64,000 nucleotides of DNA from Mesorhizobium sp. 65-26 (GTDB lineage: Bacteria; Pseudomonadota; Alphaproteobacteria; Rhizobiales; Rhizobiaceae), in NCBI GenBank assembly GCA_001899205.1, contig MKVL01000005.1, positions 183,335 through 247,334 on the forward strand. The letters run 5' to 3'. Below the pieces are notes generated by a model. The model did no database searches. It was given only the letters and a program-made list of their open reading frames with translations, and was not told where the DNA came from. Positions 2,535 through 37,967 of the stretch are shown piece after piece. Made by a program: the position numbers and the translations under genes. The first letter of the stretch is position 1. Every line of letters starts with the position of its first letter.

Positions 2535-2587
2535 CGACGCTTCGAACCTTTGCTGGAATTGCTCTGGAACTGCCGGGAGGGAAAGAC

Positions 2588-4438: not shown

Positions 4439-4454
4439 AGTCGGCGAGGCAGAG

Positions 4455-4566
4455 CCCCCTACCTCCCCCTTGTGGGGAGGTAGGACCGAAGGTCCGGGTG
4501 GGGGCCGCCGGCGCCGCACCCCCACCCCGCTGCTTCGCAGCGACCCTCCCCACAAGGGGGAGGGTA
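4455..4566. repeat. Long palindromic intergenic repeat (RIME-like) between iolD and iolE
   Basis: The left arm (about 4460-4482) runs through CCTCCCCCTTGTGGGGAGG. The right arm (about 4543-4566) is nearly its reverse complement. Smaller stems (GGACCGAAGGTCC; GCTGCTTCGCAGC) sit between them, so the transcript could fold into a long branched hairpin. The whole unit fills the iolD-iolE gap. I recognise the style from dispersed palindromic elements of rhizobial, especially Mesorhizobium, genomes. Copy number cannot be judged from one copy. It may tune iolE expression relative to iolD. Confidence 0.8.
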
Positions 4567-4594
4567 AAAATGAACCTGATACTGGAGTGACGAC

Positions 4595-5515
4595 TTGAAA
4601 GCCAAACTGGGCATGTCCCCCATCGCATGGTGGAACGACGATCTGGTGGAATTGAGCGACGACGTGTCGCTGGAGGAGTGCCTGCGGCAGTCGCGCTCGG
4701 CCGGCTTCACCGGCATGGAGATGGGCCGCCGCTTCCCCAACGACCCGAAGGTGATGCTGCCGATCCTTAGGGAGGCCGATGTCACGCTTTGCGGCGGCTG
4801 GTTCTCCGGCACGCTCGTCAATGAGGACCTGGCGAAGAACAAGGATCGCATCCAGCCGATGATCGACCTGTTCAAGGCGGTCGACGCGCCGTGCATCGTC
4901 TATGGCGAGGTTGGCCGCTCCATCCAGGGCGACCGCTCGAAGCCGCTCGCCACCAAGCCGAAGCTCGCCGACGACGAGATGAAGGCCTATGGCCGCCGGG
5001 TCACCGAGTTCGGCGAATGGTGCGCCGACCAGGGCATGCCGCTTTCCTACCATCATCACATGGCGGCGGTGGTCGAGACCGAGCCGGAACTCGACGCCTT
5101 CATGCGCAGTTCCGGCGAAGGCATTCCTCTGCTGCTCGATGCCGGCCATCTCGCCTTTGCCGGCGGCGACGTGCTGCGCGCCATCGACAAGCATCACAAG
5201 CGCATCAACCACGTGCATGTGAAGGATGTGCGCATGGGCGTGATCGATGCGCTGGACCGCGCGAGGCAGTCCTTCCTCGACGCCGTCGCACTCGGCGCCT
5301 TCACCGTGCCGGGCGACGGTTCGCTCGATTTCGGCGCCATCGTCCGGCGCTTCGCCGACCATGGCTATGAAGGCTGGTTCGTGGTCGAGGCCGAGCAGGA
5401 TCCGAAGAAAAACCCGCCGCTCAGGATGGCCCAGGTCGGCCACAAGGAGCTGATGCGGGTGATGACGGCCGCGGGTTACACGGTGGAGACGCAGGGCTTT
5501 CCCGCGGCCAGATGA
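4595..5515 (+). CDS. iolE: IolE: myo-inosose-2 dehydratase
   Basis: A 306-residue TIM-barrel protein of the xylose isomerase-like AP-endonuclease-2 fold. It dehydrates 2-keto-myo-inositol to the diketone used by IolD. Metal-site features are visible: LSYHHHMAAVVE, LLLDAGHLAFAGGD, INHVHVKDVR and WFVVEAEQD near the end. The start is taken as TTG at 4595 because GGAG (4583-4586) sits eight bases upstream. An ATG at 4613 would remove only six residues but has no comparable ribosome binding site. The gene follows the palindromic repeat closely. Confidence 0.95.
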   Translation: MKAKLGMSPIAWWNDDLVELSDDVSLEECLRQSRSAGFTGMEMGRRFPNDPKVMLPILREADVTLCGGWFSGTLVNEDLAKNKDRIQPMIDLFKAVDAPCIVYGEVGRSIQGDRSKPLATKPKLADDEMKAYGRRVTEFGEWCADQGMPLSYHHHMAAVVETEPELDAFMRSSGEGIPLLLDAGHLAFAGGDVLRAIDKHHKRINHVHVKDVRMGVIDALDRARQSFLDAVALGAFTVPGDGSLDFGAIVRRFADHGYEGWFVVEAEQDPKKNPPLRMAQVGHKELMRVMTAAGYTVETQGFPAAR

Positions 5516-5629
5516 GTTCGCGTCGGCCCGAGCTGAGATCGACGACCCGGGGGCACGGAGACAGACCGCTGGATTGGCCGCCACGAGTGGCCTATCTCAG
5601 AGTGGTTCCGGCAACTCTGCGATGGTGCG

Positions 5630-5842
5630 ATGAAAGACTACGAGAACCCCTTCTTCCGGCCGCTGTGGCGGCGCATCGTCGTGGTCGCGGTCTGCGCGAT
5701 CTGGTCGGTCATCGAGTTCGCCACCGGAACGCCGTTCTGGGGTGTCATCGCGCTGGGTTTCGCCGGCTACGCGGTGTGGCAGTTCTTCTACCTCTACAAG
5801 CCGGTGGAGGACGCCAAGCCGCCGGCCGAACCGAAGGAATGA
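5630..5842 (+). CDS. Small two-helix membrane protein of unknown function
   Basis: Seventy residues. A polar N-terminus (MKDYENPFFRPLWRR) is followed by two hydrophobic segments, about residues 16-32 and 36-55, and a charged Pro/Lys/Glu tail. The pattern predicts a small inner-membrane protein with two helices. I recall similar short proteins in rhizobia, possibly annotated DUF3329, but am not certain of the family. It sits inside the iol cluster between iolE and iolB on the same strand. The ribosome binding site is weak. No role in inositol use can be assigned. Confidence 0.68.
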   Translation: MKDYENPFFRPLWRRIVVVAVCAIWSVIEFATGTPFWGVIALGFAGYAVWQFFYLYKPVEDAKPPAEPKE

Positions 5843-5924
5843 TCGGCCCATGGGGCGTCAGGCTTACGGATCAGACAGCCCGCGCACGGCGCATCTGGTG
5901 CATTCGCGATTGGCTGAAACGCGC

Positions 5925-5995
5925 TTTTCGCTTCGTCATCCACGGGCGAAGCAAGGAGCGAAGCGACGCGGCGTAGACCCGAGGATAACGAAATT
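5925..5995. repeat. Short intergenic repeat with inverted ends upstream of iolB
   Basis: TTCGTCATCC (5932-5941) and GGATAACGAA (5983-5992) are imperfect inverted ends. They flank a core with reiterated GCGAAGC/GGAGCGAAGCG words. I recognise this as a common rhizobial intergenic element, which is recall and not a search. It lies in the 253-bp gap before iolB, where no coding frame is convincing. Confidence 0.55.
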
Positions 5996-6095
5996 TGGAG
6001 GCCTCGGCCAATCTCGAAGGCTGGCGCAGGCTTTCAACCGACGAATTCTCTGGGGCAGCAACCGGCTGGAGCCGATACGGATAGGAGGAGAGAAA

Positions 6096-6908
6096 ATGTC
6101 GAAACTGCTCGTCAAGGCCGACAAGGGCCATGGCCATGTCGCGCATGTCACGCCGCAAAGCGCCGGCTGGACTTATGTCGGCTTCGACCTCCATCGGCTT
6201 CGCCCTGGCGAGACGGCCTCCGGCAAGACGGGCGGCCGCGAAGTCTGCCTGGTCTTCGTCACCGGCAAGGGCAAGGCGTCCGCCGGCGGCAAGGAACTCG
6301 GCCTGCTTGGCGAGCGCATGTCGCCCTTCGAGGGCAAGCCATGGTCGGTCTACGTGCCGCAAGGCTCCGACTGGTCGGTGACGGCCGATACCGAGCTCGA
6401 GCTTGCCGTCTGCTCGGCGCCGGGACTGGACGGCGGCCTGCCGGTCCGCGTCATCGGTCCGGACGATCTCGGCCAGGAGGTGCGCGGCAAGGGCACCAAC
6501 ACGCGCTACGTCACCAACATCCTGCCCGAGGGCAAGCCGGCGGACTCGCTGCTGGTGGTCGAGGTGATCACCCCCGGCGGCCACACCTCCAGCTATCCGC
6601 CGCACAAGCACGACCGGGACAATCTGCCGGCGGAATCCTATCTGGAGGAAACCTACTACCACCGCCTCAACCCACCGCAGGGCTTTGCCTTCCAGCGCGT
6701 CTACACCGACGCCGACCGCAACGGCACGCGCGAGTTGGACGAGGCGATGGCGATCGAGGATGGCGACGTCGTGCTGGTGCCCAGGGGCTATCATCCCTGC
6801 GCCGCCTGCCACGGCTATGACCTCTACTACCTCAACGTGATGGCCGGGCCGAAGCGGACGTGGAAGTTCCACAACGCGCCCGAACACGAATGGTTGATGA
6901 AGGCCTGA
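6096..6908 (+). CDS. iolB: IolB: 5-deoxy-glucuronate isomerase
   Basis: A 270-residue bicupin protein that isomerises 5-deoxy-glucuronate to 2-deoxy-5-keto-D-gluconate, the IolC substrate. The metal-binding cupin motif is clear in GGHTSSYPPHKHDRD, followed by EETYYHRLNPPQGFAFQ and VLVPRGYHPCAACHGYD. The ATG at 6096 is chosen because AGGAGGAG stands just before it (6082-6089). The same frame is open further upstream but only through the repeat element. It is the last gene of the inositol cluster here. iolG and iolA are not in the window. Confidence 0.95.
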   Translation: MSKLLVKADKGHGHVAHVTPQSAGWTYVGFDLHRLRPGETASGKTGGREVCLVFVTGKGKASAGGKELGLLGERMSPFEGKPWSVYVPQGSDWSVTADTELELAVCSAPGLDGGLPVRVIGPDDLGQEVRGKGTNTRYVTNILPEGKPADSLLVVEVITPGGHTSSYPPHKHDRDNLPAESYLEETYYHRLNPPQGFAFQRVYTDADRNGTRELDEAMAIEDGDVVLVPRGYHPCAACHGYDLYYLNVMAGPKRTWKFHNAPEHEWLMKA

Positions 6909-12294: not shown

Positions 12295-13176
12295 CTATCC
12301 CTTGAAGGCCGGCAAGGTCAGTCCCTTGACGCCGACGTCCAGCGCGAACAGGCCGCCAGGATTCTTCTGGCCCTTGAAGTGGCCGGACGGCCGCCTGAGC
12401 ACGGCGGAGGTGACGTAGAGGATGTCGAGATCCTTGCCGCCGAACTCGCAGCAGGTCGGCAGGTCGGTCGGCAACAGCACGGTCTGCATCAGTCTGCCGT
12501 CGGGATCGTAGCGGCACACCTTGCTGGTGACTGGAATGGTCACCCAGTAGCACCCCTCGGCATCGACGGTCGCACCGTCGGCGACGCCACCGGTGACGGT
12601 CATGTCGATGAAGGTGCGGCGGTTGGCGATGTCGCCCGTGGCCGGATCGAAATCATAGGCCCAGACAGCGCCGGCATGGCTGTCGGAAAAGTACATCGTC
12701 CGGGAATCCGGGCTCCAGGCAAGGCCGTTCGAACAGCCAATGCCGTCGATCATCTTGTGGACCGAAAGATCGGGATCGAGGCGGTAGAGCGCGCCGATGA
12801 ACTCGATCGGCTGGCCGGGCACCTCGAACATCGAGCCCGACCAGAATCGCCCCTGACGGTCGGGCTTACCGTCGTTGAAGCGCGTTTTCGGCATGTGCGC
12901 TTCTGGGTCGACGATCGCCTCGAACCGTCCGGTGGCGGGATCGAAGAAATGGAAGCCGTCGGTCATGGTCAGCACCAGGCCGCCCTTTTCGCGCAGGCCC
13001 AGGCAACCGAGATAGTGCGGCGTCTCGAACGTGTCGTCCCGCCCCGTGGCGGGATCGTAGCGGTGGATCAGCCTGTTCCAGATGTCGATCCACCACAGCA
13101 CGCCAGCCGCCGGATCCCACAGCGTGCCCTCGCCGAGTTCGGCCCGGGCATCGACGACACAGGTGATTTCAACCAT
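12295..13176 (-). CDS. SMP-30/gluconolactonase-family lactonase
   Basis: A 293-residue beta-propeller of the SMP-30/LRE family, which hydrolyses sugar lactones to aldonic acids with one bound metal ion. Metal-site features: ELGEGTLWDPAAG near residue 13, RFNDGKPDRQGRFWSGSM, IGCSNGLAWSPDSRTMYFSDS near 150, and VADGATVDAEGCYWV near 200. It is the last gene of the minus-strand importer operon that begins at 17816. That suggests the imported sugar is oxidised to a lactone by an SDR and then opened here. Confidence 0.92.
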   Translation of the reverse strand: MVEITCVVDARAELGEGTLWDPAAGVLWWIDIWNRLIHRYDPATGRDDTFETPHYLGCLGLREKGGLVLTMTDGFHFFDPATGRFEAIVDPEAHMPKTRFNDGKPDRQGRFWSGSMFEVPGQPIEFIGALYRLDPDLSVHKMIDGIGCSNGLAWSPDSRTMYFSDSHAGAVWAYDFDPATGDIANRRTFIDMTVTGGVADGATVDAEGCYWVTIPVTSKVCRYDPDGRLMQTVLLPTDLPTCCEFGGKDLDILYVTSAVLRRPSGHFKGQKNPGGLFALDVGVKGLTLPAFKG

Positions 13177-20234: not shown

Positions 20235-20936
20235 TCAGACGAGAATGGACAGCGGGCTGGCGAGCCCCGAACCAAAAGCGGCCAGCCAGTCGGCGGCGGT
20301 ATCCTCCGCGACAAGCGACGCGTCGAAGACAAGCAGGCATTCGGCACGCTGTCCGTCCTGATCCAGCGCGGCGACCAGCCGCATCGGGCGACCGGGCAGA
20401 AGCGGCACGAGAACAGGCCGGACAGCGCCGGCGCGCAAGAGTTTCAGGGAAAGGGTCGCAGGCTCAAGCGCATCGTTGCGCCCTTCGGCCGATGCACGCT
20501 GCCGCTCCGCGCGCAGGACACCCAGCGCGGCGCCCATGCGATACAGCACGACCTGCCGGCCGTCCATTTCCAGGGCCAGCGCGGTGGCAGTTTCGATCGG
20601 AACCGCGCCGAGCGCGCGCCCGGCGGCGAGCAGGACAAGATCATCGAGATCGAAAGTGCTTCCGGAACGCGCCAGAGCGGCGAGGGCTTCGCTGGCCTGG
20701 CCTAGTGCCACCGAGATGGCGAAGGCCGCGATGCGCTGCGCGGGCGCCTGCGCCGGCCGGCTTTCCACCGGGACGGACGCGGCGGGCGCAACGAAACCCG
20801 TCACATCGGCGGCCAGGATGCGCCCGCCGGGACCGCTGCCGCGCAATGCCGAAAGCGGCAGGCCGCGCTCGCGCGCCAGCCGGCGCGCGTAGGGAGAGAC
20901 GGCAAGGCGCGCGGCCGGCGTGGCGAGCGCGTTCAC
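20235..20936 (-). CDS. Lipoyl-less, catalytically degenerate E2-like subunit of a 2-oxoacid dehydrogenase
   Basis: A 233-residue protein. Residues about 11-48 are a peripheral subunit-binding domain (VSPYARRLARERGLPLSALRG..GGRILAADV), which in normal E2 holds E1 or E3. The rest resembles a shortened acyltransferase core. There is no lipoyl domain. Where E2 enzymes carry the catalytic DHRxxDG, this protein reads VFDASLVAEDTAADWL, so the active His and Asp-Gly are gone. The GTG start overlaps the stop of the 2-hydroxyacid dehydrogenase gene (GTGA). The nearby fused E1 carries a lipoyl domain, so this may be a scaffold and not a transferase. Confidence 0.82.
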   Translation of the reverse strand: MNALATPAARLAVSPYARRLARERGLPLSALRGSGPGGRILAADVTGFVAPAASVPVESRPAQAPAQRIAAFAISVALGQASEALAALARSGSTFDLDDLVLLAAGRALGAVPIETATALALEMDGRQVVLYRMGAALGVLRAERQRASAEGRNDALEPATLSLKLLRAGAVRPVLVPLLPGRPMRLVAALDQDGQRAECLLVFDASLVAEDTAADWLAAFGSGLASPLSILV

Positions 20937-21943
20937 TTCAGGTACTCGCCGTTGACGCAGTTGGTCAGGCGGCCTTCGGCGAGATAGGCATGCACCACCT
21001 CGATCGACTTCAGCCTGAGGTCGCGCATGGCGGCCGGGCTATAGAAGGCGGCGTGCGGTGTGACGATCAGCCGGTTGACGATCCAGGGTTCGCGCCGGCG
21101 CCAGGCCGCAAGAAGCGGATGCTCGAGGTCGCCGGGTTCATGCGGCAGGACGTCGAGCCCTGCGCCGGCCACAGTTCCGGAACGCATGGCGGCTTCGAGC
21201 GCGTCGAGATCGACGATCGGGCCGCGCGCGGTGTTGACCACGACAAGCCCGGGCCTGGCGGCGGCGAGCGCCGCCTTGCCGATCAGCTTGCGGGTTTCGT
21301 CGCTGAGCGGCGTATGGATGCTGACCACGTCGGCGCGCCCCATCAGCTCGGCAAGGGTGTGCACGCGTTCATAGCCGGTCGACAGGTCGACGCCGGACAG
21401 GAGATGCGGATCGTAGAACACCACCTTCATGTCGAAGGCCGCGGCACGCCGCGCCGCCGCCAGCCCGATACGGCCGAGCCCGACGACGCCGAAGGTAGCG
21501 CCCTTGTGGCGGCGCACCAGCGGCGCCCTGGAGAAGTGCCAGCCTTGCGCGCCCTCGCCTTCGATGGCGCCGCCATAGGCTGACGTGCCGCGCGTCAGCG
21601 CCAGCATCAACCCGATCGCATGGTCGGCGACCTCGGTGGTGCCATAGTCCGGAACGTTGCACGCCGGTATCTTGCGTGCGCCCCAGCCCGACGTGTCGAT
21701 GTTGTCGAAGCCGACGCCCGAGCGTACGGCAATCCTCGCCTTGGGAAAGGCGGTCGGCGCGGCCGCGACATTGTGCGTCGGCGAGTAGTTGATGACGGCA
21801 TCGACCTCGCGGCACATCGCCGGATCGAGCGCGGCCGCCTTGTCGTTGGTCGAACGCGCCAGGATGAATTCGATGTCGGGATAGTGCTGGCGTTCGAGCT
21901 CGGCCTCGTCGGCGGCCTGCCAGTTGGCGCACAAGATCTTCAT
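20933..21943 (-). CDS. NAD-dependent D-2-hydroxyacid dehydrogenase (CtBP-like)
   Basis: A 336-residue D-isomer 2-hydroxyacid dehydrogenase. The catalytic domain has RSGVGFDNID and a CNVPDYGTTEVADHA stretch typical of the C-terminal-binding-protein branch. The Rossmann motif is GVVGLGRIGLAAARRAAAF. The catalytic Arg is in NTARGPIVD, the Glu in HEPGDLEHPLL, and the His in VTPHAAFYSP. It interconverts a 2-oxoacid and a D-2-hydroxyacid with NAD(H), or a related sugar acid. It lies between the fused E1 and the E2-like gene in one minus-strand unit, so it may supply or remove the 2-oxoacid substrate. Confidence 0.91.
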   Translation of the reverse strand: MKILCANWQAADEAELERQHYPDIEFILARSTNDKAAALDPAMCREVDAVINYSPTHNVAAAPTAFPKARIAVRSGVGFDNIDTSGWGARKIPACNVPDYGTTEVADHAIGLMLALTRGTSAYGGAIEGEGAQGWHFSRAPLVRRHKGATFGVVGLGRIGLAAARRAAAFDMKVVFYDPHLLSGVDLSTGYERVHTLAELMGRADVVSIHTPLSDETRKLIGKAALAAARPGLVVVNTARGPIVDLDALEAAMRSGTVAGAGLDVLPHEPGDLEHPLLAAWRRREPWIVNRLIVTPHAAFYSPAAMRDLRLKSIEVVHAYLAEGRLTNCVNGEYLK

Positions 21944-21998
21944 GCTTGCCCTTCGAAGTTGGAGTGAGCGAGAGCCACGCGCAACCGCGTGGCGCGAT

Positions 21999-24401
21999 CT
22001 ATTTCCTGATGCCGCCGATGCGGCCGCCCATCGGCACCACGGCGCCGACCGGCTGGTCGATGGCGACCAGCGTTCCCGAGACGGGCGCCTCGATCTCGAC
22101 GACGGCCTTGTCGGTCTCGATCTCGGCGATCAGTTCGCCTTCGCGCACGGCATCGCCCACCGCCTTCAGCCAGCGGACCAGCCTGCCCTCGCTGACGGTC
22201 AGGTCGCCGAACGGCATGGTGATCGGCTCGTCATCCCCGGCAGAGGCCGCGGGCATTGCTTTGGCCGTGGGTGTCGGCGCAGGCGGCGCCTGGACGGGCG
22301 CGGGCGCGACCGGCACATCACCCTTCAGGCCGACCGTGTACCAGTGATCGGGAACCGGTGGCCGGCCGGCGATGACGGCGCGAACACCCTCGGCGATGCG
22401 CCCGGCATCGACCAGCATGGCGCGCTCCAGTACCGGGGCGAAGGGATGCGAGGTCGGAGCCGTGTGCAGGCGGCCGGGCGGAGCGTCGAGTTCGTCGAAA
22501 GCGAGTTCATTGATCGTCTGGGCGATCTCGCCGCCCATGCCGCACATGGCCCATGCCTCGTCGACGACGAGCAGCCTGTGCGTCTTGCGGACACTGGCGA
22601 CGATGGTGTCGATGTCGAGCGGCATGATGGTGCGCGGGTCGACGATCTCGACCTCGATGCCCTCCGCCGACAGCGCCTGCGCGGCTTCGAGCGCGCGCTG
22701 CACCATCTGGCCGGCGGCGACGATGGTGATGTCGCGACCTTCGCGCGCGATGCGGGCGACGCCGAACGGCACGAAATGCTCCCCGACGGGGACCTCGCCC
22801 TTCGAGGCGAACAGCGCCTTGGGCTCCAGCATGATGACCGGATCGCCGGCGCGCAGTGCCGTCTTCATCAGGCCCTTGGCGTCGGCCGGCGTCGACGGCA
22901 CGCAGACGATGAGGCCCGGCATATGGGCAAAGACCGGGTGGTAGATGCCGCTGTGATGCGGACCGGAGCTGCGCAGGGCGCCGGCGCCGACGCGCACGAC
23001 CATCGGCGCGCTCATCACGCCGCTGGTCATGTAGCGAAGCTTGGCCGCCTGGAGAAAGATCTGTCCCGCCGTCTCGAAAGCGAAGTCGGCAAACATCAGG
23101 TCCGAAACCGTGCGCGCGCCCGTGGCCGAGGCGCCGACCGCGGCCGCGGTGAAGCCCTGCTCGGAGATCGGCGTGTCGACCATGCGATCAGCCCCGAACT
23201 CCTGCCACAGGTTCTTGGTGTGCGCGAAGCTGCCGCCGCGTTCGCCCGTTCCCTCGCCGAAATAGAAGATCGCCGGATTGGCGCGCATCTCCTCGGCTAT
23301 GCCGTCGCGCACAGCCTCCAGCCAGCCCTGCTGGCGGGTTTCGCCGGAAACGCCCCGCCGCATCGCCACTGGCGGATTGATCGGATTGGCAAAGACATGC
23401 AAGCGCACCGAAGCCGGATCGGGCTCGGGCGAATTGCGGGCGAAGGTTAGCGCCTTCTCGACGACCTTCTCGATGCGCGCCTCGATGGCCGCGAGCGCCT
23501 CGGCGTCGGCCACGCCGTAATCCTCGACCAGCTTCCTGCGGAACATGTCGATCGGATCGCGCTTGATCCAGGCGTCCAGCTCTTCCTGCGTGCGATAGGT
23601 GCCGATCACGGGATCGCCCTCGTGATGGCCGACGGTGCGATAGGTCTTGGCCTCGATCAGCGTCGGCCCCTTGCCGGAGCGGGCGCGCTCGGTGGCTTCC
23701 TTCATGGCCAGCCAGACGGCGAAGACGTCGTTGCCGTCCACGGCGACGCCAGGCATGCCGTAGGACGCGGCCTTGGTGGCGATCTCGGGATTGAGGGTGA
23801 TGGACTTCAGCGGCGTGGCGGTGGCGTAGAGATTGTTCTCGCAGACGAACACGGCGGGCGCGCGCTGCACGGCGGCGAAGTTGAGCGCCTCGTGGAAGGC
23901 GCCGTGGTTGGCGGCGCCATCGCCGAAGAAAGCGACGCCGATGTCGTCGCGTCCCTGCAGGCGCGCGCTCATGCCGATGCCGACCGCATGGCCGATGCCG
24001 GCCGCGACGATGCCGTTGGTGCCGAACAGGCCCACCGAGCGATCGTAGAGATGCATGGTGCCGCCCCGTCCTCCGCAGATGCCGCCGGCCTTGCCGAACA
24101 GCTCCGCCATTACCCGGCCCGGATCGGCGCCCTTGGCCAGCGCATGGCCGTGGCCGCGATGCGTCGAGGTCACCCAGTCGGTCGGGCGCAGATGGGCGCA
24201 GACGCCGGCGCCCGTCGCCTCCTCGCCGATATAGAGATGCAGGAAACCAGGCGTCTCGCCCTTGCGGCAGGCGATCTGGGCCACGCTTTCGAACCGGCGC
24301 AACAGCACCATGCGTTCGAAGAGATCGAGGAGGATCTGCCGGTCGGGCAGATTCGGCACCGCCCTCAAAGCCTCGTGCCTGCGTGCCGCTGAAACTGCCA
24401 C
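21999..24401 (-). CDS. 2-oxoacid dehydrogenase E1: alpha-beta fusion with C-terminal lipoyl domain
   Basis: An 800-residue three-part protein. E1-alpha (about 15-340) has FFGDGAANHGAFHEALNFA and CENNLYA for ThDP/Mg binding. E1-beta (about 360-690) has GRTIGS-type regions such as GARTVSDLMFADF and SSGPHHSGIYHPVFAHMPGL. An Ala/Pro linker (about 700-725) leads to a lipoyl domain (727-800) with the target Lys765 in EIETDKAVVEIE. ThDP-dependent decarboxylation of a 2-oxoacid and transfer to its own lipoyl arm are expected. The GTG at 24401 is preferred, five bases after GGAGG, over a TTG at 24404. No E3 gene is nearby. Confidence 0.9.
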   Translation of the reverse strand: MAVSAARRHEALRAVPNLPDRQILLDLFERMVLLRRFESVAQIACRKGETPGFLHLYIGEEATGAGVCAHLRPTDWVTSTHRGHGHALAKGADPGRVMAELFGKAGGICGGRGGTMHLYDRSVGLFGTNGIVAAGIGHAVGIGMSARLQGRDDIGVAFFGDGAANHGAFHEALNFAAVQRAPAVFVCENNLYATATPLKSITLNPEIATKAASYGMPGVAVDGNDVFAVWLAMKEATERARSGKGPTLIEAKTYRTVGHHEGDPVIGTYRTQEELDAWIKRDPIDMFRRKLVEDYGVADAEALAAIEARIEKVVEKALTFARNSPEPDPASVRLHVFANPINPPVAMRRGVSGETRQQGWLEAVRDGIAEEMRANPAIFYFGEGTGERGGSFAHTKNLWQEFGADRMVDTPISEQGFTAAAVGASATGARTVSDLMFADFAFETAGQIFLQAAKLRYMTSGVMSAPMVVRVGAGALRSSGPHHSGIYHPVFAHMPGLIVCVPSTPADAKGLMKTALRAGDPVIMLEPKALFASKGEVPVGEHFVPFGVARIAREGRDITIVAAGQMVQRALEAAQALSAEGIEVEIVDPRTIMPLDIDTIVASVRKTHRLLVVDEAWAMCGMGGEIAQTINELAFDELDAPPGRLHTAPTSHPFAPVLERAMLVDAGRIAEGVRAVIAGRPPVPDHWYTVGLKGDVPVAPAPVQAPPAPTPTAKAMPAASAGDDEPITMPFGDLTVSEGRLVRWLKAVGDAVREGELIAEIETDKAVVEIEAPVSGTLVAIDQPVGAVVPMGGRIGGIRK

Positions 24402-24482
24402 CAAGTCCTCCCGGTCCGTCCATGGCCGGCGTTTCGAGGTACCGGCGACGAGCCTTTCCGTGCCGCTCGCTGGCCGGATAAT

Positions 24483-24563: not shown

Positions 24564-25784
24564 CTAGAGCCGGCTGACCCTGACCGTCGCGTCCGGGCGC
24601 TGAAAGACCTCGGGCCGGAGAGAAAGGCCCAGGCCCGGGCCTTCCAGCGGCGAGACATGCCCGTCGGTCACCGGCGGCAGGTCGGCGACGATCTCGCGAT
24701 ACCAGCCGGTGAAATAGGCGCGCACGGCCTCCTGGTAGTTGACGTTGGGCAAGGTCGCCGAGAGCGCGCAGCTCGCGGCGTAGACGATGGGGCCGGTACA
24801 GTCGTGCAGCGTCACCGGCAGCTCGCTCGCCTCCGCCATGTTGGCGATCTTGCGCGCCTCGGAAAGACCCCCGCACCAGGCGAGGTCGATCATGATCACC
24901 GAGGCCGCGCGCCGGTCGATCAGTTGCTTGAACATCTGGCGCGAGGCCAGCCTCTCGCTGGCGGCGACCGGAATGGAGGTGTGGCGGGCAAGCTCTACGA
25001 GCGCGTCGAATTCATTGTAGCGGATCGGCTCCTCCAGCCAGGCGACGTCGAAGGGCTTGAGCGCCTCGGCGATGCGCAGCGCCGGCGGCAAGGTCCACAG
25101 CCCGTGCAGCTCGACCATGATCTCCATGTCGCGGCCGACCGCGTCGCGGATCTTGCGGAACGGCTCCAGCGCCTTGTCGAGATCGACGGCCGAGATGCGC
25201 GTGCCGTTGGATGCTTCGGCGGCGATATCGAACGGCCATATCTTCATGGCGCGGATGCCTTCGGAAAGAAGACTGCGCGCGAGATCGCCGGCGTTGTAGC
25301 GCCAGGCGAGCAGGTCCTCGTAGGGACCTTCGTTGGAATCGCCCGCCTTGAGCGACCAGTCCTCGCCGCGCTCGAACAGCGCGTTCTTCCTGGTGGCGCG
25401 GACATGCTTGTAGCCGGCGCAGGTGTTGTAGATCGGCACGCTCTTGTGGGTGCGCCCGCCCAGCAGGCGCCACACCGGCTCGCCGAGCGCCTGGCCATAG
25501 ATATCCCATAACGCGATGTTGACGGCCGAGTTGCCGCGCACCTCGGCGCCGGAATCGCGGGCGCCGACATAGACGCTGCCCAGCGTGCGGTCGTGCAACT
25601 CGATGTCACGCGGGTCCTTGCCCAGGAGATAGCCCGCGACATTGTCGTGGATGTAGCTGGCCACCGGGCCGGGCGCCCAGAAAGTTTCCCCGGTGCCGAC
25701 GATGCCGGCATCGGTGTGGACGCGCAGCCAGAACAGGAACGGAAATTCGGCGAGTTGCAGCGTTTCCAGCGCGACGACTTTCAT
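24564..25784 (-). CDS. Enolase-superfamily sugar-acid dehydratase (mandelate racemase/galactonate dehydratase type) A
   Basis: A 406-residue protein with a capping domain and a TIM barrel. Visible active-site elements: KIW in the second barrel strand (MKIWPFDIAAE), metal ligands in MVELHGLW, WLEEPIR and AASERLA, and the general base region TLHDCTGPI. The superfamily abstracts the proton next to a carboxylate. This type usually dehydrates aldonates to 2-keto-3-deoxy acids. The ATG at 25784 has GGGAGGG before it. It diverges from the SDR-transketolase operon across an intergenic LacI-type operator. Confidence 0.9.
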   Translation of the reverse strand: MKVVALETLQLAEFPFLFWLRVHTDAGIVGTGETFWAPGPVASYIHDNVAGYLLGKDPRDIELHDRTLGSVYVGARDSGAEVRGNSAVNIALWDIYGQALGEPVWRLLGGRTHKSVPIYNTCAGYKHVRATRKNALFERGEDWSLKAGDSNEGPYEDLLAWRYNAGDLARSLLSEGIRAMKIWPFDIAAEASNGTRISAVDLDKALEPFRKIRDAVGRDMEIMVELHGLWTLPPALRIAEALKPFDVAWLEEPIRYNEFDALVELARHTSIPVAASERLASRQMFKQLIDRRAASVIMIDLAWCGGLSEARKIANMAEASELPVTLHDCTGPIVYAASCALSATLPNVNYQEAVRAYFTGWYREIVADLPPVTDGHVSPLEGPGLGLSLRPEVFQRPDATVRVSRL

Positions 25785-25852
25785 TCTTCCCTCCCCTTTC
25801 GGCGTCATGACGCCAGAGCCTAGCATGAGCACGCCGCTGACATTCATGCCCG

Positions 25853-26008: not shown

Positions 26009-26803
26009 TTGCCTGCCGAAGTCACCAACAACACACGTCGAAGAGCCCTGGTCACCGGGGCGGCCGGAGGCCTCGGGCGCGAGGTGGCTTTGCAGCTCGC
26101 GGCGCGCGGCTGCGCCGTGGCGATCACCGATATCAACGCGCAGGGGGTGCAGGAGACGGCGGCGCTGCTGCGCGAGAGGACTGGTGACGTCGAGGCGATC
26201 GTCGGCGACTTCACGATCGAGGGGGCGCCGGAGGCCGCGGTCGAGAAGGTCGTCGCGCGCTGGGGCGGCATCGACATTCTCGTCAACAATGCCGGCTACG
26301 GCGTGATCGAGCCTTTCCTCGACGCGACGTTCAAGGCGTGGACGCGCACGCTGGCGCTCAACGTCACCGCGCTCGCCATGGCCTGCAAGGCGGCGGGCCG
26401 CGTGATGCGCGAGCAACGCTCCGGCCGCATCGTCAACATCACCTCGCCGGGCTCGCGCATGGCGCTGCCCGACTACACCGCCTACACGGCGAGCAAGGCG
26501 GGCGTCGATTCCATCACCCGCGCCGCCGCCGTGGCGCTGGCGCCCTATGGCGTGCTGGTGAACAGCCTCGCGCCCGGCATGATGGACACGGAGATGCAGC
26601 GCTCGACCGAGATCGATCTCGCCCGCGCCGCCGGCCGCAACGACCTGCAGGCCTTCCTCGACGAGCGCACCCGCCGCATCCCGCTCGGCCGCCGCGCCGA
26701 AATCTCCGAAGTGGCCGAGGCCGTCGTGTGGCTGTGCCTCGACTCCCCGGCCTACATGACCGCCGAACGGCTCAACATGTCCGGCGGCCTCGACAAGGAC
26801 TGA
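26009..26803 (+). CDS. Short-chain dehydrogenase/reductase
   Basis: A 264-residue classical SDR. NAD(P) binding is by LVTGAAGGLGREVA, then NNAGYG. The catalytic set is Ser in NITSPGS and Tyr/Lys in YTASKAG. The TTG at 26009 is chosen because GGGAGGG lies at 25994-26000. An ATG at 25988 is possible, but the frame further upstream runs through the promoter and operator. It leads an operon with split transketolase and a dehydratase, so a role oxidising a sugar, lactone precursor or 2-keto-3-deoxy acid is likely but unproven. Confidence 0.9.
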   Translation: MPAEVTNNTRRRALVTGAAGGLGREVALQLAARGCAVAITDINAQGVQETAALLRERTGDVEAIVGDFTIEGAPEAAVEKVVARWGGIDILVNNAGYGVIEPFLDATFKAWTRTLALNVTALAMACKAAGRVMREQRSGRIVNITSPGSRMALPDYTAYTASKAGVDSITRAAAVALAPYGVLVNSLAPGMMDTEMQRSTEIDLARAAGRNDLQAFLDERTRRIPLGRRAEISEVAEAVVWLCLDSPAYMTAERLNMSGGLDKD

Positions 26804-26811
26804 AACATCCC

Positions 26812-27660
26812 ATGCTGAGAAATTCTCCTCCGGACGAAGCCGATATCGGCGCCCTTCGACGCCGCGCGACACGGTTGCGCCGCCACATGCTGACCATGGC
26901 CAGGGGCCAGGGCCAGGGCTATATCGGCCAGGGCCTCGGCATCGCCGATGTGCTGGCCGCGCTCTATTTTCATGAACTGCGCTACGATCCGCACAATCTG
27001 GCTTGGGCGGACCGCGACCGCTTCCTCCTGTCGACGGGACACTATTCCATCGCGCTCTGGGCGGCGCTGGCCGAGGCCGGCATCATTCCGGTCGAGGAGC
27101 TTGCCACCTATGGCGCCGACAACAGCCGGCTGGAAATGTCGACACTGGACACGACGCCCGGCGTCGAGATGATCGGCGGTTCGCTCGGCCACGGGCTGGG
27201 CCAGGGTATCGGCCAGGCGCTCGGGCTGCGGCTGGACGGTTCCGAAGCGCGCGTCTTCGTCGAGCTCTCGGACGGCGAGATGCAGGAAGGCTCGACCTGG
27301 GAAGCGGCGATGTCGGCCAGTCACTTTCGCCTCGACGGGCTGGTTGCGCTGATCGACTGCAACGGCATCCAGGCCGACGGCCCCGTTGTACTCGACATGG
27401 AGCCGGTGGCCGACAAATGGCGCGCCTTCGGCTGGGAGACCTCCGAGATCGACGGCAACGACATGGCGGCGGTGGCCGACGCCCTGGCCGACGCGCGCGC
27501 CCGCAACGGCAAGCCGAAGGCCATTGTGTTGCGCACCTTGCCCGGCAAGGGCGTCCCACGCATCGAGACCAGCGAGAAATCACACTTCTTCCGCGTCGAC
27601 GTGGCGCAATGGGACGGCATCATCGCCGAGTTCGAGAACAGCGTGGGAGCGAGCCAGTGA
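26812..27660 (+). CDS. Transketolase-like N-terminal subunit
   Basis: A 282-residue ThDP-binding half of a two-subunit transketolase. It has GQGYIGQGLGIADVLAALYF, LSTGHYSIALWAALAEAG, GGSLGHGLGQGIGQALG, and the Mg/ThDP motif SDGEMQEGSTWEAAM..DCNGIQ. Split transketolases in sugar gene clusters often serve special ketose or ketose-phosphate cleavage and not the pentose phosphate pathway. That is general family knowledge, and the substrate here is unknown. It starts eight bases after the SDR and overlaps the next gene (GTGA). Confidence 0.92.
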   Translation: MLRNSPPDEADIGALRRRATRLRRHMLTMARGQGQGYIGQGLGIADVLAALYFHELRYDPHNLAWADRDRFLLSTGHYSIALWAALAEAGIIPVEELATYGADNSRLEMSTLDTTPGVEMIGGSLGHGLGQGIGQALGLRLDGSEARVFVELSDGEMQEGSTWEAAMSASHFRLDGLVALIDCNGIQADGPVVLDMEPVADKWRAFGWETSEIDGNDMAAVADALADARARNGKPKAIVLRTLPGKGVPRIETSEKSHFFRVDVAQWDGIIAEFENSVGASQ

Positions 27661-28655
27661 GCGGCGCGGCAGTGGAGGCGGGCCGCACGCTCGCCATGGG
27701 ACAGGACGAAGCGGTCGGTTCCGGCCGGTCGAGCGTGGACGCGCCGTTCGGGCGAGCGCTGGCGCGGCTCGGAAAGGCGCGAAGCGACATTGTCGGGCTG
27801 ACCGCCGACCTCGGCAAATACACCGACATCCTGCCGTTCCGGGACGCGTTTCCGGACCGCTTCTTCAACGTCGGCATGGCCGAGCAGAACCTGGTCGCGG
27901 TCGCCGCCGGGCTGGCGCGCAGCAGCAAGGTGCCTTTCGCCACCACCTACGGCGTGTTCGCCACGCGGCGGGCCTACGACTTCGTCGCCATCGCGCTCGC
28001 CCACTCCAATCTCGACGTCAAGATCGTGGCCGGCCTGCCGGGGCTGACGACCGGCTATGGCGGCACCCACCAGGCGATCGAGGACCTGGCGCTGATGCGC
28101 ATGATCCCCGGCCTGACCATCATCGATCCGTGCGACGCGACCGAGATCGAGGCCGCCACGGAAGCGATCGCCGAGCATCGCGGCCCGGTCTACATGCGGC
28201 TGCTGCGCGGCGCCGTGCCGGTCGTGCTCGAACCGGGCTACCGTTTCGAGATCGGCAAGGCGCGCCGGCTGCGCGAGGGCACCGATATCGGCATCGTCTC
28301 GACCGGCTTCATGACCGAGCGTGCGCTCGACGCTGCGGACGCCTTGCGCAAGCAGGGCATCTCGGCCGGCGTGCTGCACGTGCCGACGATCAAGCCCTTC
28401 GACGCCGAGGCGGTGGCCGAATTCGCCGCGGGCGTCGGCCGGGTGGTCACCGCGGAGAACCACGTCGTGGTCGGCGGGCTGGCGAGCCTCGTCGTCGAGG
28501 CCCTTTTCGACCGGGGCATCGCGCGCAAGGTGACCCGTATCGGATTGCCAGACCGCTACATAGAATGCGGCGCCGTGCCGACGCTGCAGGCGAAATACGG
28601 CCTCACCACGCAAGCGATGATCCAGACGATCGCCGGATCGGAGACCGCCGCATGA
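27657..28655 (+). CDS. Transketolase-like C-terminal subunit
   Basis: A 332-residue pyrimidine-binding half. The activating Glu is in NVGMAEQNLVAVAAGLA. Other features are ATTYGVFATRRAYDF and LTTGYGGTHQAIEDLALMRMIPG, and a C-terminal domain starts near residue 200. The GTG at 27657 overlaps the stop of the N-terminal subunit (GTGA). An ATG at 27696 is an alternative. The two halves form one active site. The next gene begins in an ATGA overlap, so SDR, both halves and dehydratase B form one operon. Confidence 0.92.
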   Translation: MSGAAVEAGRTLAMGQDEAVGSGRSSVDAPFGRALARLGKARSDIVGLTADLGKYTDILPFRDAFPDRFFNVGMAEQNLVAVAAGLARSSKVPFATTYGVFATRRAYDFVAIALAHSNLDVKIVAGLPGLTTGYGGTHQAIEDLALMRMIPGLTIIDPCDATEIEAATEAIAEHRGPVYMRLLRGAVPVVLEPGYRFEIGKARRLREGTDIGIVSTGFMTERALDAADALRKQGISAGVLHVPTIKPFDAEAVAEFAAGVGRVVTAENHVVVGGLASLVVEALFDRGIARKVTRIGLPDRYIECGAVPTLQAKYGLTTQAMIQTIAGSETAA

Positions 28656-29839
28656 AGATCACCGAGATCGAGACCTTCACCGTCGGGGCCGGCTGGAAAA
28701 ACTGGCTGTTCGTCAAGGTCCATACCGACAAGGGTATCCATGGCATCGGCGAGGGCACGCTCAACGGCTTCATCAAGACGACGGAAGCCGGCGTGCACGA
28801 GCTCAGGCATCTCGCCATCGGCCAGGACCCGCGCCGCATCAACGCGCTGGCCAAGCGCCTGCTGGACAGCGTATCGCTCGACGGCGGCCATATCCATCGC
28901 ACCGTGATCGCGGCGATCGAGGTCGCCTGCTGGGACATTCTGGGCAAGTCGCTCGGCGTGCCGATCCACCAACTTCTCGGCGGCCAGGTTCGCGACAGCG
29001 TGCCTGGCTACGCCAATGGCTGGTATCGCACCGAGCGGACGCCGGAAGCCTTCCTGGAAGCGGCCAAAGCGGTGCTGGCGAAGGGCTTCAAGGCCTTCAA
29101 GCTCGACCCGTTCGGGACCGCTCAGGGCTTCATCTCGCGCGAGGAGCTCGACCTGTCCTACGCCATCTGCCGCACGCTGCGCGACAAGCTGCCCAGGGAC
29201 ACGCTGATCCTGATCGACGTGCACGCCCGCTTCACCGAGATCGCCGCGCTCCAGGCGGCCCGGAAATTCGCCGATCTCGACATCTACTGGTGGGAGGAGC
29301 CGACCTCGCGCGACCGGCAGGAGACGGTGCACGAGGTGGCGCACCGCTCGCCCATCCCGGTGGCGACGGGCGAAATGTACGATACGGTCGGCCAGTTCTA
29401 CACGCTGGCCGCCGGCGGCGGCGTCAACATCTTCCAGCCGGAGCCGATGTCGCTCGGCGGCATCGCGCCCTCCATGCAGGTGGCCAATCTGGCGTTCGCG
29501 CATGGCAGCCACATCGCCCCGCACCAGAGCGGCGGACCGGTAGCGACCGCCGTGTGCCTGCAACTGGCGGCCGCCGTGCCGAACTTCCTGATCCAGGAGC
29601 ATTTCGACGCCTTCAACGACCCCTGGACGCGTGAGCTCGTGACCTGGCATCCAACGGTCGATCCGGCCAATGGCCATCTGTCGCTGCCGCAGGCGCCTGG
29701 CCTCGGCATCGACCTCAACCTCGACGCCATCAAGGCGCATCCATACGACCCGAACGCCTATCTCAACGTCCATGCGGAAGGTTGGGAAAAACGTCTCGGC
29801 CGCCGTGAAAAGACCAAGGGCAAATCCCGGAAAGGATAA
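28652..29839 (+). CDS. Enolase-superfamily sugar-acid dehydratase B (galactonate dehydratase-like)
   Basis: A 395-residue enolase-superfamily protein. Active-site elements are KAFKLDPFG, the metal and base pair in LIDVHARF, WWEEPTS and VATGEMY, and a late His in APHQSGGP. It differs strongly from dehydratase A at 24564, so the two probably act on different acids or stereoisomers. The C-terminus is extended and basic (KRLGRREKTKGKSRKG). It is the last gene of the LacI-operator-controlled operon starting at 26009 and is coupled to the transketolase by ATGA. Confidence 0.9.
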   Translation: MKITEIETFTVGAGWKNWLFVKVHTDKGIHGIGEGTLNGFIKTTEAGVHELRHLAIGQDPRRINALAKRLLDSVSLDGGHIHRTVIAAIEVACWDILGKSLGVPIHQLLGGQVRDSVPGYANGWYRTERTPEAFLEAAKAVLAKGFKAFKLDPFGTAQGFISREELDLSYAICRTLRDKLPRDTLILIDVHARFTEIAALQAARKFADLDIYWWEEPTSRDRQETVHEVAHRSPIPVATGEMYDTVGQFYTLAAGGGVNIFQPEPMSLGGIAPSMQVANLAFAHGSHIAPHQSGGPVATAVCLQLAAAVPNFLIQEHFDAFNDPWTRELVTWHPTVDPANGHLSLPQAPGLGIDLNLDAIKAHPYDPNAYLNVHAEGWEKRLGRREKTKGKSRKG

Positions 29840-36617: not shown

Positions 36618-37191
36618 AGCCCGCCATCCAGCCGCCATCGACGGCGAGCATCTGGCCCGTGGTGTAGGTGTTGAGCGGATCGCTGAAGAACAGCAAGGCG
36701 GCGACCGCCTCGTCGATGGTGCCAGCGCGCCCGACGGGGACGTGGCTGAGCATCGCGCTGTCGCCCGAGACGACCGACACGCCCTCGACCAGGCCAAGAC
36801 CGACGGCGTTGACCAGGACCTTCGGCCCGAATTCCATGGCCAGCGCGCGCATGCCGGCAAGGATCGCGGCATTGTCCATGGAGAAGCCGGCATGGCGGCG
36901 CATCGGCATGCCGGCGACGGCGGAAATTACGAAGACGATGCGTCCGCCGCCGCGCCCGGCCATCGCCATGGCGACGTCCCGCGCACGGCCATGCGTGTCG
37001 CGTGGGGGGCGTGGCGGGGCGCCGGGGCTGAGCGGGCAGGAAACCAGCAGGATGTCGGCGGCGCCGGCCTCCGCGACGACCTGGCCGCCATTGACGCGCA
37101 ACGCTTCAAGCATGGCGTCGGTGACGGCGTTTGCTTCACCGTCGAGCGCGACCGTCGCGCCGGCTAGTTCTATCCGCATGGCGAGGCTCAC
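36601..37191 (-). CDS. Degenerate SDR-like protein lacking cofactor and catalytic motifs
   Basis: A 196-residue protein with the SDR C-terminal layout (PVGRAGTIDEAVAALLFFSD, GQMLAVDGGWMAGYG) but a broken front. The TGxxxGxG cofactor loop is absent. The chain begins MRIELAGATVALDGEAN and is about 60 residues shorter than normal. At the active site Ser90 remains, but the expected Tyr is Phe103 and the Lys is Asn107 (GFSMDNAA). The frame is intact over its full length. It is GTGA-coupled to the upstream SDR and probably forms a partner subunit. Confidence 0.8.
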   Translation of the reverse strand: MSLAMRIELAGATVALDGEANAVTDAMLEALRVNGGQVVAEAGAADILLVSCPLSPGAPPRPPRDTHGRARDVAMAMAGRGGGRIVFVISAVAGMPMRRHAGFSMDNAAILAGMRALAMEFGPKVLVNAVGLGLVEGVSVVSGDSAMLSHVPVGRAGTIDEAVAALLFFSDPLNTYTTGQMLAVDGGWMAGYGRNF

Positions 37192-37967
37192 ATCATGTAT
37201 CCGGCGGTCCAGCCGCCATCGACGGCCAGCACCTGGCCATTGACGTAGCTCGCCGCGGGCGACGACAGGAAGAGCACGGCTTCGGCGATCTCAGCCGGTT
37301 CGGCCGGCCGGCCCAGCGGCACATGCGCCATGAATTCCTGGGTGCGGCCGGCGAACTTGCCGCCCTCGCCATAGAACAGCTTGGCGGTGAGCGCCGTCAT
37401 CACCGAACCCGGCGCGATGGCGTTGGTGAGAATGCCCCTGCCGCCGAGCTCGATCGCCATCGACCGCGTCAGATGGATGATGCCGGCCTTGGCGGCGACG
37501 AAGGGGCTTTGAAGACGCATGGCCGCGAGACCGACGACAGAGGCGATGTTGACGATGCGCCCGCCCCTGCCGCCGGCGAGCATCGGCTTCAGCGCCGCGC
37601 GGCTGACGAGGTAGAGCCCGTCGAGATCGATTCCGGTGATCCGGTCCCACTCCTGGGCGGGGAAATCGTCGATGGTGACGCGGTGAGCGAGCGTGTTGAC
37701 GCCGGCATTGTTGATGAGAATGTCGAGCCGGCCATGGCGGGCTTCAATCGCGCCTATCGCCTGCTCGACGGAGGCGCCGTCGCGGATATCGACACCGGCC
37801 GCGCTTGCGCTGTCGAGCTCGGCCGCGACCCGCTCGGCGCCGGAAAGATCGATGTCGGCGACGACGACCGAGGCGCCGTTCTCGGACAGCCGCCTGGCGA
37901 TGGCGCTGCCGATCGCGCCGGCGGCCCCGGTGACCAGCGCGACCTTGCCCTTCAAATCGCAACGCAT
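37188..37967 (-). CDS. SDR-family protein with catalytic Tyr replaced by Phe
   Basis: A 259-residue SDR with an intact Rossmann loop (LVTGAAGAIGSAIARRL), NNAGVN, Ser143 in NIASVVG and Lys160, but Phe156 at the catalytic Tyr position (QSPFVAAKAG). The family C-terminus AVDGGWTAGYMM is present. Without the Tyr hydroxyl, normal dehydrogenase chemistry should be weak or changed. It heads an operon with the degenerate SDR-like gene and an epimerase, under AT-rich site f 28 bp upstream. Confidence 0.88.
   Translation of the reverse strand: MRCDLKGKVALVTGAAGAIGSAIARRLSENGASVVVADIDLSGAERVAAELDSASAAGVDIRDGASVEQAIGAIEARHGRLDILINNAGVNTLAHRVTIDDFPAQEWDRITGIDLDGLYLVSRAALKPMLAGGRGGRIVNIASVVGLAAMRLQSPFVAAKAGIIHLTRSMAIELGGRGILTNAIAPGSVMTALTAKLFYGEGGKFAGRTQEFMAHVPLGRPAEPAEIAEAVLFLSSPAASYVNGQVLAVDGGWTAGYMM

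Follow-up and report, generated by a model that had tools for sequence, protein, structure and literature searches.

A fused E1 2-oxoacid dehydrogenase with its own lipoyl arm and a His-less E2-like partner in Mesorhizobium: a candidate E2-independent system

Introduction

A 64,000-nucleotide stretch of the genome of Mesorhizobium sp. 65-26 (contig MKVL01000005.1, here G000:C5:183335-247334 and called the window; the host genome comprises 6.84 Mb in 42 contigs) encodes two relatives of the subunits of 2-oxoacid dehydrogenases. The first (E1f) is a fused E1-alpha/E1-beta protein with a C-terminal lipoyl domain, and the second (E2L) is an E2-like protein without a lipoyl domain and without the catalytic His. 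In 2-oxoacid dehydrogenases, E2 ordinarily forms the core, carries the lipoyl arm and makes the acyl-CoA. The anatomy described here, a fused E1 with its own arm and a His-less relative of E2, is well supported by the sequences. That E2L serves in docking as the eukaryotic protein E3BP does, with release of the acyl group independent of E2, is a proposition to which we give even weight for and against.

In the proposed mechanism, E1f would use thiamine diphosphate to decarboxylate a 2-oxo acid and would acylate its own C-terminal lipoyl arm, as its intact domains and motifs suggest. E2L would be derived from an E2 whose lipoyl domain, catalytic His and part of the core have been lost. Its peripheral subunit-binding domain (PSBD) would hold the general E3 of the cell (less likely E1) near the E1f arm, as E3BP does. 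No dedicated E2 would transfer the acyl group to CoA. The group would leave the arm without an E2 core, either by hydrolysis or, in the case of a 4-hydroxy sugar acyl group, by self-lactonisation, and E3 would re-oxidise the arm of E1f. The thioester of a 4-hydroxy sugar acyl group is expected to lactonise by itself, and in that case an E2 would be unnecessary. Lipoylation, E3 docking, substrate and acyl fate are what we infer here from the sequences.

A fused E1 with its own lipoyl arm

E1f is encoded on the minus strand at 21999..24404 of the window (801 residues from a TTG start). All four of its Pfam domains score over the cut-off: the E1-alpha domain spans residues 30-330 (23415..24317; PF00676, E1_dh, E 3e-84), the E1-beta domains span residues 360-532 and 548-670 (22395..23327; PF02779, Transket_pyr, E 6e-34, and PF02780, Transketolase_C, E 4e-37), and the lipoyl domain spans residues 736-796 (22017..22199; PF00364, Biotin_lipoyl, E 7.6e-15). 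By Pfam, E1f has both thiamine diphosphate domains of an alpha/beta-type E1, and its translation contains GDG..N, which we take to be the thiamine-type motif. The original prediction, made from the letters of the DNA, had described an 800-residue fusion of E1-alpha, E1-beta and lipoyl domain, and the Pfam domains confirm that the fusion is complete. It had also named Lys765 in EIETDKA; the motif was right, but the predicted lipoyl-lysine is K766 (22107-22109) in the 801-residue numbering, because the earlier count began at the next codon. Orthologues of E1f in 21 further genomes are 69-90% identical, and ETDK is kept in every one, as EIETDKA in 20 and as EIETDKS in L098.

The move of the arm to E1 had been put forward as a rewiring. 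E1f does carry a lipoyl arm on a fused E1, but such a placement does not by itself amount to a rewiring, because the E1-beta of the host's own pyruvate dehydrogenase (PDH; 465 residues, L066 4176-5573) also carries a lipoyl domain (PF00364, residues 4-77). Judged from these domains, the lipoyl-on-E1 half of the finding is for the same reason not new. The two proteins differ in that the lipoyl domain is N-terminal in the host PDH E1-beta and C-terminal in E1f, and the host PDH E1-alpha is a separate gene. Furthermore, an E2 with a PSBD and the start of a catalytic core adjoins the host PDH genes, where it is cut by the contig end.

A PSBD joined to a shortened, His-less core

E2L (20235..20936, minus strand; 233 residues from a GTG start) combines a PSBD, the E3-binding domain (residues 13-45, 20802..20900; PF02817, E 9e-14), with a shortened E2-type core (residues 65-233, 20238..20744) that was recognised by hhalign against catalytic E2 cores. 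In a Pfam scan of E2L at E <= 0.001, PF02817 was the sole match, with neither a lipoyl domain nor PF00198. The PSBD was found in 21/21 members of the E2L family. No lipoyl domain was found in the 21 family stretches, the row from the genome G454 ending before its lipoyl domain; only the full-length G454 protein has one.

The cores were compared without the PSBD, by alignment of 14 of the 21 E2L cores with seven catalytic E2 cores (six from the host genome and one from Gemmobacter), so that the match could not stem from the PSBD. The hhalign probability was 97.2% (E 2.9e-11, 160 columns), with FDASLVAE of E2L placed opposite SYDHRIVDG of E2. The place of DHRxxDG thus reads DASLVAE in E2L (residues 205-211, 20304..20324), with His changed to Ala, Arg to Ser and Asp-Gly to Ala-Glu. 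None of the 21 members, the window included, has His at the catalytic place, where the letters are A, P, S or E and never Gly or Trp. The second Asp of the motif is absent in 19/21, and the Asp preceding the lost His (D205) is invariant (21/21). The core is also shorter by about 60 residues (169 against about 230 in the compared E2 cores), and PF00198 matches 5/14 E2L cores (best E 0.0053), that of the window not among them. In the PDB, the best match of the E2L core profile is 6h60_A, mitochondrial protein X (E3BP), at E 5.7e-8, a small lead over the catalytic E2 proteins that follow (E 7.5e-7 and weaker). Phosphotriesterase matches in the same search (E 0.0016 and weaker) were set aside as chance.

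The possibility that a catalytic His lies hidden at another place in the core was rejected: the window E2L has no His after residue 60, and the family has no conserved His column. More broadly, no His, Cys or Ser column is kept in at least 17 of the 21 cores. By sequence, then, the E2L core is a true relative of E2 that has lost the catalytic His. The original prediction had called the small protein E2-like, with a PSBD, no lipoyl domain and a lost DHRxxDG, and both the Pfam scan and the core alignment agree; the alignment with E2 cores that it had proposed found the homology, the missing His and no His elsewhere in the core. Its view that the transferase centre looks dead holds in part, since the catalytic His is missing throughout the family, but the preceding Asp is invariant. 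In E. coli E2o, the two residues of greatest importance are Asp374 and His375 (PMC5986005). The activity kept is reported as 2.1% for His375Ala, 13% for His375Gly, 60% for His375Trp and 9.5% for Asp379Ala (PMC5986005). Because the His375 variants keep activity, loss of the His is in itself no proof of a dead centre.

Maintenance of E2L and distribution of the gene pair

The ratio of nonsynonymous to synonymous change (dN/dS) was determined by the Nei-Gojobori method in eight close pairs, in some of which synonymous change exceeds 1 per site. The ratio was 0.17-0.40 for the E2L core in 8/8 pairs and 0.07-0.17 for E1f. Between the window and its congener G596, E1f is 90% identical and the E2L core 50% identical. 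A frameshifted or decayed full-length E2, an origin that the original prediction had raised, was rejected: each of the 20 other members is encoded by one uninterrupted frame, with no frameshifted full-length E2 among them, and core dN/dS is below 0.5. When the host's conventional E2s were compared with the window, matches near the locus fell only inside the frame of E2L itself. Judged from these comparisons, E2L is a real, kept gene, yet a fast-changing one.

Two overlapping samples were searched, one of 297 genomes from the family and one of 397 from the order. The threshold for E1f was E 1e-200, and 2-9 first-look candidates were scored per genome, so diverged copies may be missed. An E1f orthologue was found in 22 different genomes, each scoring at least 1236 bits, against 544 bits for the best host paralogue. 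E2L is present in 20/22 of these genomes, and a search for homologues that keep the gene pair, as had been suggested, thus found it at most E1f loci. In 18/22 genomes E2L lies directly after E1f; with start codons of our choosing, its distance from the stop of E1f is -4 to +36 bases. The D-2-hydroxyacid dehydrogenase that had been described as coupled between the two genes (20933..21943, minus strand; 336 residues; PF02826, E 2.4e-46) is indeed so placed in the window, where its gene overlaps that of E2L by 4 bases, but elsewhere the arrangement recurs only in G596 and at none of 18 other loci.

Two of the 22 genomes, G267 (87% complete) and G550, hold no E2L. In G267, E1f is followed by a 2-hydroxyacid dehydrogenase and a regulator, and in G550 by an Ldh2-type dehydrogenase. 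A search of both whole genomes with the E2L family profile gave no match longer than the PSBD (profile 5-69, 8-69 and 10-67), and the same search in G596 as a control gave the full E2L at 234 bits; relocation of E2L elsewhere in G267 or G550 was rejected on this result. In the E1f tree, G550 stands apart and G267 is placed among the E2L-bearing rows, at forks (93/87 and 89/85) that are not starred. On the simplest count the absences would be two separate events, a single origin being the less likely account. As far as these genomes tell, E2L is dispensable in two lineages.

In 385 genomes of the class, part of them from the same order, the host alone gave a match along the whole profile at E 1e-18, and the 22 other hits end at profile 124-140. 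A scan of genome contigs gave only PSBD matches, in a Burkholderiales metagenome-assembled genome and in Paenibacillus. Among plasmids there was no E2L match at E 1e-8 and no E1f match of at least 60% identity. In the genomes searched, E2L was found only in the order to which the window belongs.

The metagenome-assembled genome G454 (58% complete) has a different arrangement (L110, G454:C104, 297-3493), in which separate E1-alpha and E1-beta genes are followed by a gene for a 361-residue protein. This protein comprises a lipoyl domain, a PSBD and a His-less E2-type core (LSVDPKAVT), and the arrangement is a possible intermediate to E2L.

Search for E2 and E3 partners

All six frames of the window and of 24 related stretches, each 8-20 kb long, were searched with a profile of catalytic E2 cores, and no catalytic E2 was found. 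The profile gave two matches only (E 3e-4 and 3e-3), both on E2L genes, those of L098 and L058. In an independent control, it found the E2 in 43/43 conventional E2 loci of other genomes (worst E 6e-6), and the presence of a catalytic E2 elsewhere in the cluster was rejected on these grounds. It also recovered 7/7 of the loci from which it was built.

The host genome has ten PF00198 matches, none of them in the window. Six intact host E2 cores bearing DHR were aligned, and five lie beside E1f-type E1 genes. No E1 was seen beside the sixth (on contig C12) by a search that would hardly detect a 2-oxoglutarate-type E1. There is no E3 match in the window, in agreement with the earlier remark that no E3 is local, and four host E3 proteins over the cut-off are on other contigs (C18, C12, C15 and C4).

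Several fragments of E2 genes were observed at contig ends. Two copies of a 167-residue C-terminal part of a PDH-type E2 lie at the end of contig C18 (L004) and the start of contig C4 (L005); 486/504 bases are identical and therefore this is probably a true second copy. N-terminal parts of E2 lie at the ends of contigs C6 and C20. On another host contig (L063 2056-6807; G000:C25:207055-211806), Pfam identified a fused E1-alpha/E1-beta without a lipoyl domain and with no adjacent E2, whose neighbours are an AMP-binding enzyme and an alpha/beta-hydrolase-type protein.

Comparison with known systems

E3BP has been characterised as a protein of E2-like topology with an E3-specific PSBD and an inactive core, which is reduced in fungi (PMC10156792). 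The missing His distinguishes animal E3BP from E2, mammalian E3BP is inactive and E3BP is concluded to be a eukaryotic gene (PMC10156792). E2L appears similar, as it also has a PSBD and an E2-homologous, His-less core, and its best PDB match is protein X. However, E3BP sits with a catalytic E2 core, whereas none was found near E2L and the arm is borne by E1f. Mammalian E3BP also has the domains of E2, the lipoyl domain included (PMC10156792), whereas E2L has no lipoyl domain. E2L is bacterial and does not belong to the eukaryotic orthologue group, and the likeness would be one of working only.

A redistribution of E1 and E2 functions, with lipoyl on an unexpected protein, is shared with actinobacterial OdhA/KGD (PMC10415282). 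In C. glutamicum, OdhA requires a lipoyl-lysine that AceF provides in trans (PMC10415282). OdhA has an active E2 domain and takes its lipoyl-lysine from another protein, which is the reverse of E1f and E2L. The catalytic domain of E. coli E2o likewise works with a separate lipoyl domain (PMC5986005).

Acetoin-dehydrogenase-type clusters, of which the host has one (C33), also combine an alpha/beta E1 with lipoyl and no CAT-type E2 core. Their lipoyl domain is fused with an alpha/beta hydrolase, presumably the protein family named PRK14875, whereas the hydrolase is absent at the E1f locus. Plasmids of Sphingobium sp. MI1205 and RAC03 and of Thermus thermophilus AA2-2 encode an E1 and a stand-alone lipoyl protein, with no E2 listed in gene tables that are incomplete; in these clusters a small protein of its own provides the lipoyl domain, which in E1f is fused. 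Their existence weakens the view of the E1f locus as a wholly new arrangement. At these loci (L133 in RAC03, L134 in MI1205 and L136 in AA2-2), an AMP-binding protein adjoins in MI1205 and TRAP transporter genes adjoin in Thermus. The plasmid p2 of Gemmobacter fulvus (L131, 5995-9718) encodes E1-alpha, E1-beta, a 77-residue lipoyl protein (site TAK), an E2 core and a PF21948 lipoyl-ligase-type protein. Here E2 is taken apart, with the lipoyl domain separate from the catalytic core, but the 230-residue E2 core is intact and keeps FDHRAVDG. In the literature searched, in which subscription journals are thinly covered so that the result is no proof, no description was found of an E1-alpha/beta/lipoyl fusion with a PSBD/dead-core partner.

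Cluster setting and substrate clues

On the minus strand, the gene order is an enolase-superfamily protein, E1f, the D-2-hydroxyacid dehydrogenase, E2L, a GntR/UTRA regulator, sugar-transport genes (for sugar-binding proteins and for the ATPase and permease of an ABC system) and an SMP-30-type protein. The enolase-superfamily, dehydratase-like protein (24564..25847; PF13378/PF02746) lies upstream of E1f and has 2pod as its best PDB match (E 3.5e-130). The open reading frame of the regulator spans 20347-19355, with the true start probably further downstream, and the SMP-30/gluconolactonase-type protein (12295..13176; PF08450, E 2.1e-88) is encoded beyond the sugar ABC-transporter genes. About 13 kb from E1f, also on the minus strand, is an SDR dehydrogenase (37188..37967) with relatives 58-86% identical at 21/21 other E1f loci, only E1f loci being counted. 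These loci variously hold enolase-type proteins, an HpcH aldolase, an Ldh2 or 2-hydroxyacid dehydrogenase, an aldose epimerase, a sugar ABC transporter and an SMP-30-type lactonase. Their content suggests that the E1f clusters are of a sugar-acid catabolic type. For the proteins scanned, there was no NCBIfam match over the cut-off, and the PDB gave no close characterised relative to indicate the substrate.

Other genes of the window were noted. The myo-inositol catabolism genes iolC, iolD, iolE and iolB were recognised at 629-6908 by DNA similarity to annotated plasmids; they lie some kilobases from the sugar transporter genes and resemble Shinella and Sinorhizobium DNA. The region 26338-29839 holds a second enolase-superfamily protein, which is 88-94% identical in G218, G074, G267 and G596, and a split transketolase, with Transketolase_N in one open reading frame and the domains Transket_pyr and Transketolase_C in the one that follows.

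Discussion

The more specific form of the proposal is a dehydrogenase without E2 that would turn 2-oxo sugar acids into the free acid or a self-formed lactone one carbon shorter, with a leftover prokaryotic E3BP-like protein docking E3; it is offered tentatively, as rather unlikely in this full form. Several observations weigh against E3BP-like docking with E2-independent release. The host genome has at least six conventional E2s, which might take the acyl group. The dN/dS of the E2L core is 1.5-4.3 times that of E1f and the PSBD slice ranges over 0.08-0.68 (0.68 in one pair, the slice being short); the constraint on E2L is loose, because the core exceeds E1f and the slice reaches this value. 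G267 and G550 keep E1f without E2L, and docking by E2L is not always needed, given that these are 2/22 E1f orthologues. The invariant Asp beside the lost His may point to some acyl-binding role for E2L. Within the stretches examined, a lactonase-type gene is near only 14/22 E1f loci, which makes the lactonase link suggestive only, and the lactonase-type protein may serve an earlier step instead.

Alternatively, the acylated arm of E1f could reach the active site of one of the cell's conventional E2 cores, and acyl-CoA would still be made. E2L may even be incorporated into this core, in the manner of eukaryotic E3BP. The intact DHR-bearing E2 cores of the host, at least six in number, favour a borrowed E2, as does the working of lipoyl in trans, reported for OdhA with AceF and for the domains of E2o (PMC10415282; PMC5986005). 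Mammalian E3BP, which has the topology of E2 and is inactive (PMC10156792), is a further point in its favour. However, no orphan E2 was seen: five of the six host E2s lie beside E1f-type E1 genes, and for that on C12 none was seen by a search ill suited to 2-oxoglutarate-type E1 genes. Furthermore, the shortened, fast-changing E2L core would poorly fit a fixed place in a conserved core. We consider a borrowed E2 possible, though somewhat improbable.

E2L might also be a vestige in the course of being lost, the acyl group leaving the arm unaided and an E2 being no longer needed. This would suit the intact E1f of G267 and G550, both without E2L, the nesting of G267 in E2L-bearing rows of the E1f tree and the contrast in identity between E1f and the E2L core of the window and G596. 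Against loss stand the core dN/dS of below 0.5 in 8/8 pairs (with synonymous sites near saturation in some), the PSBD in 21/21 members and the E2L gene in 20/22 genomes, and a vestige seems improbable. Finally, E2L might still act as a transferase or thioesterase through an altered active site. The invariant Asp is at the place of Asp374 of E. coli E2o, an important residue of that enzyme (PMC5986005). The core, however, is shortened, that of the window has no His, and at least 17/21 cores share no His, Cys or Ser column; retained activity appears the least probable of these explanations, and quite improbable in itself.

If E3BP-like docking with E2-independent acyl release is correct, the E2 step of 2-oxoacid dehydrogenases can be dropped or outsourced. 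E2L would then be a bacterial parallel to eukaryotic E3BP and would provide a simpler system in which to ask what role an inactive E2 core has. The E1f clusters of these bacteria may represent an unrecognised route for sugar-acid chain shortening.

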